40,210 bases of DNA from Acidimicrobiales bacterium (GTDB lineage Bacteria > Actinomycetota > Acidimicrobiia > Acidimicrobiales > JAHEJN01). Below are positions 1,407 to 32,459 of the stretch, in pieces; the stretch's first letter is position 1; every line of letters begins with the position of its first letter. Location: the NCBI GenBank assembly GCA_024638845.1, contig JAHEJN010000024.1, positions 1 to 40,210 on the forward strand, in the 5' to 3' direction. The notes under the pieces are model-generated. The model was not told the origin of the DNA and searched no databases. It saw nothing but the letters and a program-made list of their open reading frames with translations. Made by a program: the position numbers and the translations under genes.

Positions 1407-2530
1407 GCCGACACCTGAACCCGCGCAACGATCCCAACGCCGCCTGGTACCACCTCGACCCGCTGGTCGTGCTGGCTCCGATCGCCTTGGCGGCGCTCGG
1501 CCTGGCCGCGATCCACAGCACGACACGTGGCACCGATCCGCTCGCCTACGACTACTCCTATCTCGAGCGGCAGCTGCTCTTCGTGGTGCTCGGCATGTTC
1601 CTCATGGGTGTTGCGTCGGTCATCGACTACCAGCACCTCCAGAAGCTCAGCCCGGTCCTGTATCTCGGTGGGATCGTCGCCCTGGTTGCCGTGCTCTCCC
1701 CGCTCGGGAGCGAGGTCAACGGGGCACAGGCGTGGTTCAACATCGGCGCGTTCGGAATCCAACCGTCGGAGTTCATGAAGCTCGCCGTCATCATCCTGCT
1801 CGCGGCTTACATGTCACGCCACGACGGCGACCTCTCGTTGGGCCAACTCGTTGGCGCACTCCTGCTGGTCGGTCTGCCGATGGTGTTGATCCTTCGTCAA
1901 CCCGACGTGGGGACGATCCTGGTCTTCGCGGCGATCGTGATGGCGATGCTGTTGACGGGCGGCGCCAAGCTCCGCCACATCGTGATCCTCACGGTGCTGG
2001 GAATCGCCATGGTGTTCGCGGTGGTCAACTCGCCCCTGCTCGAGTCGTATCAGCGCGACCGCCTCACGACCTTCATCAACCCCGACTCGGCCGACGTCGA
2101 AGCGGGCTTCAACCAGAATCAGGCCCAGGTCGCCATCGGCAACGGCGGGCTCACCGGCAAGGGGTACGGCCAAGGCGAGCAGACCCGCTCGGGTCTGGTG
2201 CCCGAACAGGAGACCGACTTCATCTTCACCGTCATCGGCGAGGAGCTCGGCTTCGTCGGGAGCTCGATCGTGCTCGGGCTCTTCGCCTTGTTGATCGCCA
2301 GAGTCTGGCGAGCAGCCCAGCTGGCCAAGGATCAGTTCGGCACCCTCATCTGCGTCGGCATCCTGGCCATGATCGTGTTCCAGATGTTCCAATCCATCGG
2401 CATGAACGCCGGCATCATGCCGGTCACGGGTATCCCACTGCCCTTCGTCAGCTACGGCGGCAGCAGCAGCCTCGTGAGCTTCATGAGCATCGGCCTGGTC
2501 CTCAACATCCGCATGCGCCGCTGGCAATGA
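1403..2530 (+). CDS. rodA: RodA, SEDS-family peptidoglycan glycosyltransferase
   Basis: A 375-residue polytopic membrane protein of the FtsW/RodA/SpoVE family. It polymerises lipid II into glycan strands together with its class B PBP partner. Many hydrophobic segments are visible from residue 20 to the end. The family signature PEQETDFIFTVIGEELGF is present; the Asp of ETDF, residue 272 (codon 2216-2218), aligns with the conserved catalytic Asp of SEDS enzymes. The C-terminal motif PFVSYGGSSS is also typical. ATG at 1403 overlaps the mrdA stop in an ATGA junction, so the two are translationally coupled. The length is normal. The family also contains FtsW; linkage to PBP2 favours RodA. Confidence 0.94.
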   Translation: MSRHLNPRNDPNAAWYHLDPLVVLAPIALAALGLAAIHSTTRGTDPLAYDYSYLERQLLFVVLGMFLMGVASVIDYQHLQKLSPVLYLGGIVALVAVLSPLGSEVNGAQAWFNIGAFGIQPSEFMKLAVIILLAAYMSRHDGDLSLGQLVGALLLVGLPMVLILRQPDVGTILVFAAIVMAMLLTGGAKLRHIVILTVLGIAMVFAVVNSPLLESYQRDRLTTFINPDSADVEAGFNQNQAQVAIGNGGLTGKGYGQGEQTRSGLVPEQETDFIFTVIGEELGFVGSSIVLGLFALLIARVWRAAQLAKDQFGTLICVGILAMIVFQMFQSIGMNAGIMPVTGIPLPFVSYGGSSSLVSFMSIGLVLNIRMRRWQ

Positions 2531-2703
2531 CTCCCGCCTACTCGCGCCACTTCGTGGCGCTCCTACGGCGGCTGCGCGGGCGCCTTTCGCCGAGTTCAGA
2601 ATGAACTCGGCTCCCTGACTTCCGCCTACTCGCGCCACTTGGTGGCGCTCCTACGGCGGCTGCGCATGCGCCTTTCGCCGAGTTCAGAATGAACTCGGCT
2701 CCC
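2528..2703. repeat. Tandem duplication of an 88-bp hairpin-rich unit
   Basis: Two head-to-tail copies, 2528-2615 and 2616-2703, are identical at 84 of 88 positions by my count. The first copy begins exactly at the rodA TGA stop. Each copy has a stem-loop with 7-bp inner arms (GCGCCAC/GTGGCGC, 2544-2550 with 2554-2560 in copy 1) flanked by an outer CCGCC/GGCGG stem. It also has a perfect 10-bp stem with a GAA loop (2589-2598 with 2602-2611). Three of the four differences fall in a loop or at the centre of a palindrome (TTC to TTG at 2553; GG to AT at the centre of GCGC-NN-GCGC), so the pairing is unchanged. This resembles REP-like or small non-autonomous mobile repeats, or a double terminator after rodA. 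No coding function is evident. Confidence 0.85.
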
Positions 2704-2756
2704 TCCCTTGGGCCTCTGGGGGATCGGGGGATCGACCGGCGGGAACTGAGCAGGTA

Positions 2757-27558: not shown

Positions 27559-28448
27559 TCGTCTCATCAGGGGAGGCGCTCGTCGACCTCGTGCCCGAGC
27601 CCGTTCCGGGTGGCGGACCCATGAACGTCGCGGTTGCTGCTGCACGCCTCGGCGTACCGTCGGCGTTCATCGGCCGGGTCTCCACCGATGCCTTCGGTGA
27701 GCAGATCTGGCACCACCTCGAGTCGAACGGCGTGGATCTCGCCGCCGCCGAACGGGGTGACGAGCCAACGGCCCGGGCCATCGTCGAACACGTTCCCCAG
27801 CTGCGCTTTCGTTTCGAGGGTGACGGGACCGCCGATCAGGCGCTCACCCGCGCCGATCTCGGTCGCCTCGATCCGGGGCCCCACATCGTCCACGGCGGCA
27901 CGCTCGGCCTGTTCCGCGGTCGCACGGCCGAGGTGTTGGCCGACCTGGCCGAGCGCCATCGGGGCATCGTCTCGCTCGATCCGAACGCGCGCCCGCAGAT
28001 CATCGACGATCGCGCGGTTTGGATGCGATTCCACGATCGCTGGGTGGCCCAGACCCACGTGTATCGGGGTTCCGACGAGGATTTCGACTGGATCTGGCCG
28101 GGACGGGATATCGAGTCGATCGCCGAGGAGCTGCTGGCCGGGGTGTGTCACGCGGTGGTGTTGACCCGTGGACCTCTGGGTGCATGGGCGTTCACGGCGA
28201 GCGGGCGCGTCGACGTGGCCGGCGTGAGCGTCGATGTCGTCGACACGGTCGGCGCCGGGGACACCTTCGTGGCCGCCACCCTGGTCGGTCTGCACGACAG
28301 GGGCCTGGCCGGCGAGCCCCGAGCCCTGGCCGATCTCGAAGCCGGCGACTGGGCCGACATCGTCGGGTTGGCCGTGCGGGCCGCGGCCATCACGTGTTCC
28401 CGCCGGGGGGCCGACCCGCCCACGCGCGCCGAAGTCATCGGCGACTAG
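27555..28448 (+). CDS. PfkB-family carbohydrate kinase (fructokinase-like)
   Basis: A 297-residue sugar kinase starting at GTG 27555, overlapping the hydrolase stop. The N-terminal signature GGGPMNVAVAAARLG binds sugar, and the C-terminal signature DTVGAGDTF holds the catalytic base Asp236. Sequences such as SGEALVDLVP suggest a fructokinase-like member, but the sugar is not certain. The TAG stop at 28446-28448 overlaps the stop of the convergent Ppx/GppA gene inside one CTAG. Confidence 0.88.
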   Translation: MIVSSGEALVDLVPEPVPGGGPMNVAVAAARLGVPSAFIGRVSTDAFGEQIWHHLESNGVDLAAAERGDEPTARAIVEHVPQLRFRFEGDGTADQALTRADLGRLDPGPHIVHGGTLGLFRGRTAEVLADLAERHRGIVSLDPNARPQIIDDRAVWMRFHDRWVAQTHVYRGSDEDFDWIWPGRDIESIAEELLAGVCHAVVLTRGPLGAWAFTASGRVDVAGVSVDVVDTVGAGDTFVAATLVGLHDRGLAGEPRALADLEAGDWADIVGLAVRAAAITCSRRGADPPTRAEVIGD

Positions 28449-29971
28449 AGCAAACGGATCGTCGAGTCGAGCGCGGTCTCGAGCAGGCCCTTGCGCTCGT
28501 CGAACGTGTACCGCTCGAGCGAGTCGTCGTCGGTCGCGGTGATCGACACGACGATCTCACCGTCGGTCAGCGAGGCCGAGGCGCTGATCACGCGTGAGTC
28601 GTGGCTGCGATCGAGGGCAATGCCGAGGCGCAACAGGCCGGCCAGAACCCGGATCACTCGCTGGTCGTCCGGTTCGAGCGCGGCGAACTCGACGTGTTTG
28701 GGTTTGGGCGCACTTCGTCGGTGGTACCGGGCCACCAGGGCGATGAGCTCGATCTCGTGGTCGGTGAAACCCACGAGGCGATCGGAGTTCCGGATCACGT
28801 AGTAACTGTGCTTGTGGTGCGCCGAGTGGGAGATGAAGAGACCGACGTTGTGGACCCAGCCGGCCGCCTCGAGCAGATCGCGCTCGGCGGCGCCGAGCCC
28901 ATGCCGGATCTGGAGGTCGTCGAAGAGCCGCAGCGCAAGGTCGGTCGAGTGCTCGACGTGATCGTGGTCTTCGTCGAAGAGCTCGGCGAGCTGGCGAACG
29001 CTGCGACGCCGGATATCGCCGAGATGATCGATCGCATCGGCGTGTTGGCGATGGAAGCGATCGAGCAGGACCCCTTCGCGAAGCGCATAGGTCGAGAAGG
29101 TGAGGTCGTCGCAACCGAAGAGGGCCATGCTCTGATCGAGCAGGATGGCGCCGGCGACGATCGTGTCGGCACGCGCCGTGTCGAGCCCGTGGACCTTGCG
29201 CCTCGACTCGGCGTGCTGGTGGCTGGTCAGATCGGCGATCACTTCGCCGAGCTCGGAGCGACTCATAGTGACGTTGTTGAGCGTGTTGGGAGCATGGCCT
29301 CGACGCAGCTCGGCCATGGCGGCCAGGTTCTCGATGGTGCCCGAGCTGCCGACGAGCGTGGTGTACCCGAGGGGCCGGAGCTCGTGGGCGACCGGCGTGA
29401 GCAAGTGGTTGATCCACGCCCGACATTCGACGACGGTGCCGTCGGTGACCTCGCCGTCGGGGAAGAACCGATCGGTCAGGCGGATCGCACCCAGCTTCAT
29501 GCTGCGAGCGTCGATGGTGTCGCCCCCTTGGCCCACGAGGAACTCCGTGCTCCCGCCACCGATGTCGATCATCAGCAGCCGCTGGTGCAATACGGGAAGG
29601 GCCTGGAGAATGCCGAGGTGGATGAGCCTGGCCTCTTCGGCGCCCGAGATCACCTCGATCCTCACCCCAGCCTCGGCCAGAGCACGCCTCAGGAACACAC
29701 TGCGATTCTCGGCTTCGCGAACCGCACTGGTGGCCACCGCGGTCAGATCGGCGCCGGCTGCGTCGACCAGCTGTCGGTACCGGCTCAACACCTCGATGCC
29801 CCGATCGATGGCGTCAGGAGACAGCTCGCGCATGTCGCCCGAGCCCGAACCGAGCCGCGCCTGGTCCTTCTCGCTCGTGACGACGTCGAAGGCCCCCCGC
29901 TCGTTCACCCGGGCGATCAGGAGGTGAAGCGAGTTCGTCCCGATGTCGATGGCGGCATGCAGATCGCCCAC
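28445..29971 (-). CDS. ppx: Exopolyphosphatase / ppGpp 5'-phosphohydrolase family protein
   Basis: A 508-residue Ppx/GppA enzyme that hydrolyses polyphosphate or pppGpp. The actin-like fold has AIDIGTNSLHLLI (from residue 7), TSAVREAENR with the catalytic Glu, and MIDIGGGSTEFLVG. The C-terminal HD-like domain (about 310-508) includes WVHNVGLFISHSAHHKHSYY. GTG 29971 overlaps the TAG stop of the DAHP synthase (TAGTG), so the pair is translationally coupled. Longer in-frame extensions into the upstream gene are artefacts. Whether it acts on polyphosphate or pppGpp cannot be told from sequence. Confidence 0.92.
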   Translation of the reverse strand: MGDLHAAIDIGTNSLHLLIARVNERGAFDVVTSEKDQARLGSGSGDMRELSPDAIDRGIEVLSRYRQLVDAAGADLTAVATSAVREAENRSVFLRRALAEAGVRIEVISGAEEARLIHLGILQALPVLHQRLLMIDIGGGSTEFLVGQGGDTIDARSMKLGAIRLTDRFFPDGEVTDGTVVECRAWINHLLTPVAHELRPLGYTTLVGSSGTIENLAAMAELRRGHAPNTLNNVTMSRSELGEVIADLTSHQHAESRRKVHGLDTARADTIVAGAILLDQSMALFGCDDLTFSTYALREGVLLDRFHRQHADAIDHLGDIRRRSVRQLAELFDEDHDHVEHSTDLALRLFDDLQIRHGLGAAERDLLEAAGWVHNVGLFISHSAHHKHSYYVIRNSDRLVGFTDHEIELIALVARYHRRSAPKPKHVEFAALEPDDQRVIRVLAGLLRLGIALDRSHDSRVISASASLTDGEIVVSITATDDDSLERYTFDERKGLLETALDSTIRLL

Positions 29972-31320
29972 TACGAGAGGAGCTCGGCCACCCGGAAGGC
30001 GAGGTCGACCGACTGGCGTCCGTTTAGGCGGGGATCGCAGATGGTCTCGTACCGGAGCTCGAGATCGGCGTCGTCGAGCTGGTCGCCACCGCCGAGGCAT
30101 TCGGTCACGGCATCTCCGGTGAGCTCCACGTGGATGCCCCCGGGCCAGGTGCCCTCGGCCCGGTGAGCGGCGAAGAAGCCGCCGACCTCGGCGACCACGT
30201 CGTCGAAGTGCCGAGTCTTGCGTCCGTTCTCGGAGGTGAAGGTGTTGCCGTGCATGGGGTCGCAGGCCCACACGACCGGATGACCGGCATCGGTGACCGC
30301 ACGGAGCAACGGAGCCAGCTTCGATTCGACGTTGGCCGCACCCATGCGACTGACGAGGGTGAGCCGACCCGGGATCCGGTTCGGGTTGAGGACCTCGCAG
30401 ATCTCGAGGGCGTCGGCGGGCGTGGCGGTCGGGCCCAGCTTGCAGCCGACGGGATTCTGCACGCCCCGGAGGAACTCGACATGGGCGCCGTCGAGCTGGC
30501 GGGTGCGCTCGCCGACCCACAGCATGTGAGCCGAGCAGTCGTACCAGTCGCCGGTGATCGAGTCACGCCGGGTGAGCGCTTCCTCGTAGCCGAGCATGAG
30601 CGCCTCGTGGCTGGTGAACAGGTCGACCTCGTGCAGTCGCGAGTCCTCCGACGTGGCGAAGCCGGCGGCCTCCACGAAACGCAGGGCGGAATCGATGCCC
30701 GAGGCGAGCTGCTCGTAGCGGTGACCTTCGGTGCTCGAGGCGATGTGTTCCTGGTTCCATGCGTGCACCCGGCGGACATCGGCAAAGCCACCCTTGGTGA
30801 AGGCCCGCAGCAGGTTGAGGGTCGACGCCGACTGGTTGTAGGCCTGCAACAGGCGGCGTGGGTCGGGCGTACGGGCTGCCTCGCTGAAGGTGGCATCGTT
30901 GACCAGGTGGCCCCGGAACGACGGCAGCTCGACGCCGTCGATCACCTCGGTGTCGGTGGAGCGGGGCTTGGCGAACTGACCGGCGATGCGACCGACCTTC
31001 ACCACCGGCACGCCGGCCGAGTAGGTGAGGATGATGGCCATCTGGAGGATGACCCTGAGCTTGTCGCGGATGATGTCGGCGTTCATGGCGTCGAAGGACT
31101 CGGCGCAGTCGCCGGCCTGCAACAAGAAGGCCTCGCCGCTGGCGACGCGAGCGAGCTGGGCGGTGAGCGCCCGTGCCTCACCGGCGAACACCAGAGGCGG
31201 CAGTCCGCTGAGCTCTTTGAGGACGGCTTCGAGGGCTGCGGGATCGGGCCAGTCAGGCTGCTGGGCGGCGGGGAAGCCGTTCCAGCTGCTTGGGTTCCAC
31301 GTGTCGCTCACAGGGTCCAT
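29971..31320 (-). CDS. aroF: Class II 3-deoxy-7-phosphoheptulonate (DAHP) synthase
   Basis: A 449-residue enzyme that condenses phosphoenolpyruvate and erythrose 4-phosphate in the first step of aromatic amino acid synthesis. Class II features are the QAGDCAESF metal-ligand region, VESKLAPLLRAV, WACDPMHGNT and GGIHVELTGDAVTECLGG. ATG 31320 has a perfect AGGAGG seven bases upstream (31328-31333), so the upstream in-frame ATG at 31347 is unlikely. Plant-type class II enzymes are the main form in actinobacteria. It follows the sigma factor gene and a repeat-rich spacer, and is coupled to ppx. Confidence 0.94.
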   Translation of the reverse strand: MDPVSDTWNPSSWNGFPAAQQPDWPDPAALEAVLKELSGLPPLVFAGEARALTAQLARVASGEAFLLQAGDCAESFDAMNADIIRDKLRVILQMAIILTYSAGVPVVKVGRIAGQFAKPRSTDTEVIDGVELPSFRGHLVNDATFSEAARTPDPRRLLQAYNQSASTLNLLRAFTKGGFADVRRVHAWNQEHIASSTEGHRYEQLASGIDSALRFVEAAGFATSEDSRLHEVDLFTSHEALMLGYEEALTRRDSITGDWYDCSAHMLWVGERTRQLDGAHVEFLRGVQNPVGCKLGPTATPADALEICEVLNPNRIPGRLTLVSRMGAANVESKLAPLLRAVTDAGHPVVWACDPMHGNTFTSENGRKTRHFDDVVAEVGGFFAAHRAEGTWPGGIHVELTGDAVTECLGGGDQLDDADLELRYETICDPRLNGRQSVDLAFRVAELLS

Positions 31321-31354
31321 GCTGGGGCCTCCTGGCGTGGGACACAACCTGGTC

Positions 31355-31426
31355 GGGGAGAACCGAGGTCGGCAAGACTGCGCGTGTCCCGGGGAGAACC
31401 GAGGTCGGCAAAACTGCGAGTGTCCC
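31355..31426. repeat. Two tandem copies of a 36-bp unit (plus a partial third)
   Basis: Copies 31355-31390 and 31391-31426 differ at two bases by my count. A partial third copy (GAGGAGAACC) starts at 31427. Each copy holds GGTCGGCAA and ends GTGTCCC. The array lies in the sigma factor-DAHP synthase spacer and upstream of the DAHP synthase ribosome-binding site. There are no spacers between units, so it is not a CRISPR array. Confidence 0.75.
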
Positions 31427-31448
31427 GAGGAGAACCCCGGGACACTCG
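31417..31448 (-). terminator. Hairpin behind the sigma factor gene (probable terminator)
   Basis: CGAGTGTCCCG (31417-31427) pairs perfectly with CGGGACACTCG (31438-31448), an 11-bp stem with a 10-nt loop. On the minus strand it starts 25 bases after the sigma factor stop and is followed by CAGTTTTG, a short T-run. It overlaps the end of the 36-bp repeats. Confidence 0.55.
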
Positions 31449-31473
31449 ACGCACGATCTGTTTCGACGAGCGG

Positions 31474-32304
31474 TCAGGCCGCGTCGATGCGTTCGGGAGC
31501 GTTGTCGCGAACGGTGTTGACGGCTCGCTTCACGAGACGACGGGCGGCCTCGGCGGTGACACCGAGCTCTTCGCCGACCTCGCGGTAGCTGCGCTTGCGG
31601 CCGTCGTGCAGGCCGAAGCGCTGCTCGACCGCGTAACGGGCGCGTTCGTCGAGAACATCGAGCAGGCCGGTGACCATCGCCTCTTCGGCGCGATCCATGA
31701 CCATCGACTCGGGGCCGGGGTTGGAATCGGGCAGAAGGTCGACCAGTTCGTTGCTGTCGTCATCGCCGATGGTGCGGTCGAGCGACGTGGGGGTCGTGAG
31801 CCGGTGGAGGCGAGCATGCTCTTCGTCGAGCTCGTCGCCGTCGCCCGACACCTGGCGCAGTGCGGCCCGGAGGCTCGCCGACCGATCGCCGGGAAGACGG
31901 ACGAGGCTGGCCTTCTGGTCGAGGGCTCGGCCGATGGCCTGGCGGATCCAGAAAGTGGCATAGGTGCTGAACTTGAACCCCTTGCGCCAGTCGAACTTGT
32001 CGACGGCGTGCTCGAGGCCGAGGTTGCCCTCCTGGATGAGATCGAGCAGCTCCATGCCGGGGGGCAGCGGGTAGCGGCGCGCGACGCTCACGACCAGGCG
32101 GAGGTTGGCCCGGATGAAGCGGTCCTTGGCGGCGGCAGCGCGGCGATCGGCCCGACGCAGCTCGACGCTGCGCTCGCCTTCGGCGATGCGTTCGCGGGCT
32201 TCTTGACCCTTTTCGATGATCTGCGAGAGCTCGCGCTCTTCGGCGGCGGTGAGAAGCGGCACGAGGCCGATCTCGTTCAGGTACTGACCTACGGAATCAC
32301 TCAT
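31474..32304 (-). CDS. Sigma-70 family RNA polymerase sigma factor (primary-like, no region 1.1)
   Basis: A 276-residue sigma factor with region 1.2 (residues 1-33, DSVGQYLNEIGLVPLL), region 2 (about 61-125, LLDLIQEGNLGLEHAVDKFDWRKGFKFSTYATFWIRQAI), a shortened region 3, and region 4 (205-266, REVGEELGVTAEAARRLVKRA). Region 2.4 and after (GRALDQKASLVRLPGDR) departs from the RpoD sequence RAxADQxRTIRxPVH, so it is an alternative (group 2/3) sigma rather than the housekeeping one. There is no ECF-type brevity and no anti-sigma gene next to it. It has a 272-base leader region rich in repeats. Its regulon is unknown. Confidence 0.86.
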   Translation of the reverse strand: MSDSVGQYLNEIGLVPLLTAAEERELSQIIEKGQEARERIAEGERSVELRRADRRAAAAKDRFIRANLRLVVSVARRYPLPPGMELLDLIQEGNLGLEHAVDKFDWRKGFKFSTYATFWIRQAIGRALDQKASLVRLPGDRSASLRAALRQVSGDGDELDEEHARLHRLTTPTSLDRTIGDDDSNELVDLLPDSNPGPESMVMDRAEEAMVTGLLDVLDERARYAVEQRFGLHDGRKRSYREVGEELGVTAEAARRLVKRAVNTVRDNAPERIDAA

Positions 32305-32375
32305 GTTGTCTCAGGGGGTTGTTGGGTGCTTTTGAACAGTCGACGCAGTGGCTCCAAGAGAAGTCGCGAATCGGC

Positions 32376-32414
32376 CGGGGGGTCGATACGCTCTAGAACA
32401 GCAACGGGGGGTCG
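32376..32414. repeat. Direct repeat CGGGGGGTCG x2, 29 bp apart, upstream of the sigma factor
   Basis: The 10-mer occurs at 32376-32385 and 32405-32414, start to start 29 bp, in the leader region of the sigma factor gene. It may be a pair of regulator sites, spaced nearly three helical turns apart. The 272-base divergent gap between the sigma factor gene and nadD otherwise holds the palindrome at 32432 and the nadD promoter. Confidence 0.4.
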
Positions 32415-32431
32415 TTGTTCCCTCTCCTGGT

Positions 32432-32459
32432 GAAATCTCTGCACGTGTGCCGAGATTTC
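32432..32459. promoter_or_regulatory. 28-bp palindrome in the sigma factor / nadD divergent region
   Basis: GAAATCTC (32432-32439) pairs with GAGATTTC (32452-32459), and the centre holds GCAC-GT-GTGC. Twelve of the 13 arm positions can pair around a 2-base centre. It lies 128 bases upstream of the sigma factor start and 118 bases before nadD. It could be an operator or an RNA hairpin in a sigma factor leader. There is no T-run, so a terminator is unlikely. Confidence 0.5.

Follow-up and report, generated by a model that had tools for sequence, protein, structure and literature searches.

Does a short tandem repeat that runs into a hairpin between two bacterial genes work as a switch on transcription, or is it a bystander of an ordinary terminator? 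The locus lies in a window of 40,210 nucleotides, which is the whole stretch of DNA analysed here, from a genome assembled to 3.70 Mb in 220 contigs. A sequence-only reading had placed the repeat between a sigma factor gene and the genes for DAHP synthase and Ppx, and Pfam and NCBIfam profiles confirm that order: sigma factor, then DAHP synthase, then a Ppx/GppA family protein. The sigma-70 factor gene has no NCBIfam subtype above its cut-off, and its orthologs are 64-92% identical in the loci of 17 relatives (L005-L021). Class II DAHP synthase is identified by TIGR01358 (691 bits vs a cut-off of 614.7). The Ppx/GppA family protein that follows it (stretch 28448-29440) is assigned by Pfam, with NCBIfam matches below their cut-offs. 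The genes, the hairpin and the repeat copies are as follows.

31474-32304, minus strand: sigma-70 factor gene, with Pfam regions 1.2, 2 and 4
29971-31311, minus strand: class II DAHP synthase gene, counted from the conserved GTG start; an in-frame ATG lies at 31320
31417-31448, minus strand: predicted intrinsic terminator of the sigma gene (left arm 31448-31435, loop 31434-31431, right arm 31430-31417)
31410-31416, minus strand: terminator tail CAGTTTT; TTTT is rare in this genome
31401-31436, minus strand: 36-bp unit, terminator-adjacent copy, framed as GGTTCTCC...GACCTC (loop, right arm, tail and 6 bp)
31365-31400, minus strand: 36-bp unit, second copy, with a T to G change in the arm, TCTT replacing TTTT, and no left arm
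31354-31364, minus strand: third copy, incomplete, GGTTCTCCCCG; possibly the initial short direct repeat across which the unit was duplicated

The hairpin starts 25 nt past the sigma stop codon. Its stem has 14 nt per arm (31417-31430 / 31435-31448), closed by a 4-nt loop that reads TTCT on the minus strand; the hairpin had been recognized from sequence, but with a stem of 11 bp. Its left arm had been taken for the end of copy two, which is correct as far as it goes, but on the plus strand the arm also extends over five bases at the start of the partial copy. On the minus strand all 14 pairs form, 13 of them Watson-Crick and one G-U, and the isolated hairpin reaches -27.7 kcal/mol; on the plus strand the same G-U position is a mismatch and the value is -23.4 kcal/mol. 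The minus-strand fold of the gap (31348-31473) is stabler than those of shuffled sequences (z -2.78, with 2/200 shuffles as good), and the plus-strand fold gives z -1.95 with 8/200 as good. The stem is followed by CAGTTTTG, four T behind the 3-nt spacer CAG. A packaged terminator scan reported no terminator here because it demands five T in eight, a rule that this tail fails. In 384 kb of the source genome the chance of TTTT per 10-nt stretch is 0.00065, and TTTT occurs within the next 10 nt of 4/110 strong hairpins, a count over both strands in which many sites may appear twice. A riboswitch or attenuator was considered and dropped: Rfam at its gathering threshold gave 0 matches in the window, and the gap sequence is not conserved with the family relative.

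Comparison with relatives bears directly on what the hairpin is. The sample comprised 95 loci. One is that of the window, 14 came from a genome search (L008-L021), and the rest are the best 80 of 542 by sigma protein, these 80 bearing labels such as Acidimicrobiales, Acidimicrobiaceae, Acidimicrobiia or Microthrix, with some broader and one Acidobacteria. L005-L007, apparent repeats of L078, L068 and L085, were left out, as were L022-L033, which are more distant sigma genes. Removing 7 loci without a usable sigma end or downstream DAHP gene and 11 with gaps below 10 or above 300 bp left 77 gaps. With a strong hairpin defined by a score of 28 or more and the expectation taken from 30 dinucleotide shuffles per gap, 32/77 gaps between sigma and DAHP genes hold one vs 0.53 expected, the window among them; a cut of 24 gives 36 gaps (1.93 expected) and a cut of 30 gives 30 (0.27 expected). 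TTTT lies within 9 nt past the stem in 25/32, the window included, and on the opposite side in 0/32; with the window excluded the count is 24/31 relatives, all these counts being of related and therefore not independent sequences. Stem sequences vary between relatives, so that the position of the terminator is kept and its sequence is not. The sequence-only identification of a terminator is supported by this positional conservation, and the short T tail would fit it. In the remaining 45/77 gaps no strong hairpin was found (22 have a GC content below 0.50 and 23 do not), so that not every relative would terminate at this point. In L078, the one other family genome compared, the hairpin scores 25, below the cut of 28. 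In the relatives as well, the T run often does not follow the stem directly, with CG immediately before TTTT in 17/25 of the cases that have TTTT.

The repeat itself was described correctly beforehand as two 36-bp copies with two differences and a partial third. Tandem Repeats Finder (TRF) and direct comparison place the copies at 31354-31389 and 31390-31425 (34/36 identical), followed on the plus strand by 11 nt of a partial copy (31426-31436) with one mismatch in 11. The whole array spans 31354-31436 (TRF score 145, 2.3 copies) and merges into the hairpin at 31417-31448. Along the mRNA, the unit consists of GGTTCTCC, which is the loop with its neighbours, the right arm, the tail CAGTTTTGCC and GACCTC. 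It is half a terminator, and the array has no second left arm. TRF rows with a period of at least 20 and a score of at least 80 number 15 in 384 kb of the source genome, some overlapping, and three, this array among them, were judged noncoding. A frame test gives an 802-codon open frame over the array; since the long open frame at this point (30130-32433, plus strand) lies on the strand opposite to the sigma and DAHP genes, it was taken to be spurious. By eye, an open frame on the minus strand also crosses the repeat, 36 being a multiple of 3; no ribosome site was seen for it, and it overlaps the DAHP start.

The window holds another array, at 2528-2704 (plus strand), where an 88-bp tandem duplication starts with the stop codon that closes an open frame at 2530; each unit has, by eye, two small hairpins. 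Another contig of the same genome (C127; L165, 11993-12193) carries similar sequence, with 85% identity across some 40 nt, at three places with a period of 78. Allowing at most one mismatch, CCGCCTACTCGCGCC has five occurrences genome-wide, all of them in the 88-bp and C127 arrays; its backwards control has one.

Among the genomes sampled, the 36-bp unit is private to this one. A genome-wide search for it, suggested by the sequence-only reading, matched only its own locus: one match at E <= 0.001 in its own genome, and no occurrence there beyond the two copies of a 34-letter pattern allowing up to 3 mismatches. The same pattern was found in 1/298 sampled genomes of the order (probably Acidimicrobiales, judging by the labels above), namely the source genome, and was absent from the other 297. 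An interspersed repeat of the REP/MIRU type was rejected given this single locus. Genomes were compared at one per species, and the family was represented by two, the window's own and one of another genus; a second genome of the same genus was looked for and not found. When a 261-bp region was compared by Blast with the other family genome, only the coding end of the sigma gene matched (E 6.3e-27), the remaining matches being weak (E 0.02 or worse) and taken as chance. That relative, L078, has a different hairpin in a gap of 87 bp.

Beyond the repeat lies a promoter-like set of the DAHP synthase gene, together with a Shine-Dalgarno sequence.

31319-31347, minus strand: conserved DAHP promoter-like set, -35 TTGTGT (31347-31342), 17 bp, -10 CAGCAT (31324-31319)
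31328-31333, minus strand: Shine-Dalgarno AGGAGG, 7 nt before the in-frame ATG at 31320

In the window the set reads TTGTGT-17-CAGCAT-7-GTG (31311). The upstream regions of DAHP synthase in the 95 loci were aligned on a conserved W-x-P-x-x-W near the N-terminus, which gave 82 distinct loci; 5 had no motif, and 8 either gave no usable DAHP match or duplicated another row. An in-frame start lies 3-21 nt before that W in 62/82, and 20/82 had no start codon in range. The pattern TTG-N16-19-nAnnnT, 4-9 nt before the start, occurs in 44/62 upstream regions vs 1.28 expected from shuffles and is unmet in 18/62. The spacing from -10 to start is 7 nt in the window and 6 nt in 31/43 other loci, and the conserved form can be written TTG-17-nAnnnT-6-GTG. 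A matrix built from those 43 loci, whose sites were picked for TTG and nAnnnT, ranks the DAHP site 4th of 80,340 positions on both strands of the window; a generic sigma-70 promoter scan of the window does not list it. The short spacing between -10 and GTG points to a leaderless mRNA, so that class II DAHP synthase in these actinobacteria probably has a conserved promoter and a leaderless message, as judged from sequence. At the window locus, however, the AGGAGG-ATG set, 9 nt upstream of GTG, argues for some leadered mRNA and fits that form better than a leaderless one. Such Shine-Dalgarno-like 5-mers occur near a start in 2/82 loci, the window and L016, in the latter overlapping the -10. Lying downstream of the repeat, the promoter-like set means that DAHP synthase need not depend on read-through from sigma. 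In 13 loci (L065-L076 and L079) with gaps of 57-69 bp and a GC content of 0.28-0.48, no strong hairpin is found and the DAHP promoter set is kept; the terminator thus seems optional and the promoter not.

These findings allow the possible roles of the repeat to be weighed. A slippage-prone repeat could set the strength of the terminator and thus the read-through from sigma to DAHP and ppx, as had been proposed, and the right arm of the terminator does sit within the repeat unit. Ensemble folding was applied to the whole gap and to models with 1, 2, 3 and 4 copies. In the native gap the mean pairing probability of the left arm is 0.973 with the closest right arm and 0.00 with the second. Across the models with one to four copies the proximal arm pairs at 0.95 to 0.99, later arms at 0.00, and the proximal hairpin is unchanged; copy number does not alter the terminator structure in models that keep the native proximal copy. 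Repeat growth would therefore neither create nor move terminator arms, contrary to the sequence-only reading, since each added copy brings a right arm only, without a left arm for a second terminator. The one change that would matter, and only mildly, is deletion of the proximal copy with the second kept, which would swap in the drifted arm and leave a slightly weaker stem (-26.3 vs -27.7 kcal/mol) with a TCTT tail, pairing falling from 0.97 to 0.81. In longer read-through folds the second right arm pairs with GTGTCCC near 31346-31340; this segment overlaps the conserved -35, so that no structural role has to be invoked. With extra copies leaving the fold as it was and a separate promoter-like set for DAHP synthase, tuning of read-through by copy number is very unlikely. 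A limited literature search found no report of a variable number tandem repeat with terminator read-through. That a DNA-binding regulator of DAHP synthase uses the repeats as operators is scarcely credible: direct repeats do sit close upstream of the promoter-like set, but a helical turn of DNA is about 10.5 bp, so that a spacing of 36 bp is not a whole number of turns, and the unit is missing from the 297 further genomes sampled, whereas the promoter set is retained in many relatives.

A different possibility is that the duplication made a second promoter at the junction of the copies, with TTGCCG from the tail of one copy and GACACG from the right arm of the next held 17 bp apart.

31383-31411, minus strand: junction promoter-like site (speculative), TTGCCG, 17 bp, GACACG

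A slip within half a terminator would in this case have given birth to a promoter, presumably with GACACT before the present GACACG, and added a leadered DAHP mRNA translated from the Shine-Dalgarno sequence, whose leader would extend some 55 nt up to the ATG at 31320, to a gene that in many relatives looks leaderless. The site scores 8.33 with the matrix, shared 12th/13th of 80,340 window positions, a value reached by 0.7% of 20,000 random 36-bp duplications; a single-copy model scores 2.52. With identical copies the score would be 15.39, a value that 0.025% of the random duplications attain and that exceeds the best native site of the window (14.47). GACACT serves as the -10 in 5/43 other loci, and a Shine-Dalgarno-like 5-mer before an in-frame start, which such a promoter would put to use, is confined to the 2/82 loci that include this genome. 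However, the site was spotted by eye before it was tested, with a matrix whose sites had been chosen for TTG and nAnnnT, and a generic sigma-70 scan shows no site at the junction. The last base of its -10 is G, and the matrix favours T there; the promoter, if it arose, thus seems decayed. This origin is accordingly unlikely; if true, the locus would show clearly how a single slip in nature can convert half a terminator into a promoter. A limited literature search found no report of a tandem duplication creating a new promoter in a bacterial spacer.

The preferred reading, held at a probability of about 0.8, is an ordinary predicted terminator of the sigma gene joined by a private and likely neutral half-duplication, with DAHP synthase having its own promoter. 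The segment 31417-31448 would be a Rho-independent terminator, an identity suggested by the match of its position, stem strength and T tail to the same gap of many relatives. DAHP synthase would be transcribed from its own set past the terminator, where the -10 ends 7 nt before GTG. The 36-bp stretch from the terminator loop through the right arm and tail would have been duplicated once, in this genome alone among those searched, probably across the 11-nt near-direct repeat GGTTCTCCYCG. The second copy appears to have drifted since, given a T-to-G change that disrupts its pairing to the left arm. It lengthens the spacer between terminator and promoter and is most likely neutral. The reading of the locus is thereby corrected: in the folding models the repeat neither makes nor moves terminator arms, and the downstream gene appears self-promoted. 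A by-product is the recognition of a conserved and probably leaderless DAHP promoter and of a terminator conserved by position and not by sequence.

Minisatellites of the VNTR type are short tandem units in intergenic gaps with a partial last copy, and this locus shares all of these traits; it differs from them in having only 2.3 copies at a single locus. As in Rho-independent terminators, the hairpin has a GC-rich 14-bp stem and a 4-nt loop; its candidate T tail has only four T, which begin after CAG. The DAHP set can be compared with promoters mapped in Mycobacterium tuberculosis, for which one study reports TANNNT centred 7-12 bp before transcription starts, no conserved -35, and widespread leaderless mRNAs, whose 5' ends lie at most 5 bp from the start codon and which use GTG as often as other genes do (PMC3898074). 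The DAHP set resembles the leaderless promoters described there in having its -10 hexamer a short distance of a few nt upstream of a GTG start codon (PMC3898074). In contrast to them (PMC3898074), it keeps a -35 TTG at 17 bp, and its -10, predicted from sequence, reads nAnnnT, usually beginning with G or C.
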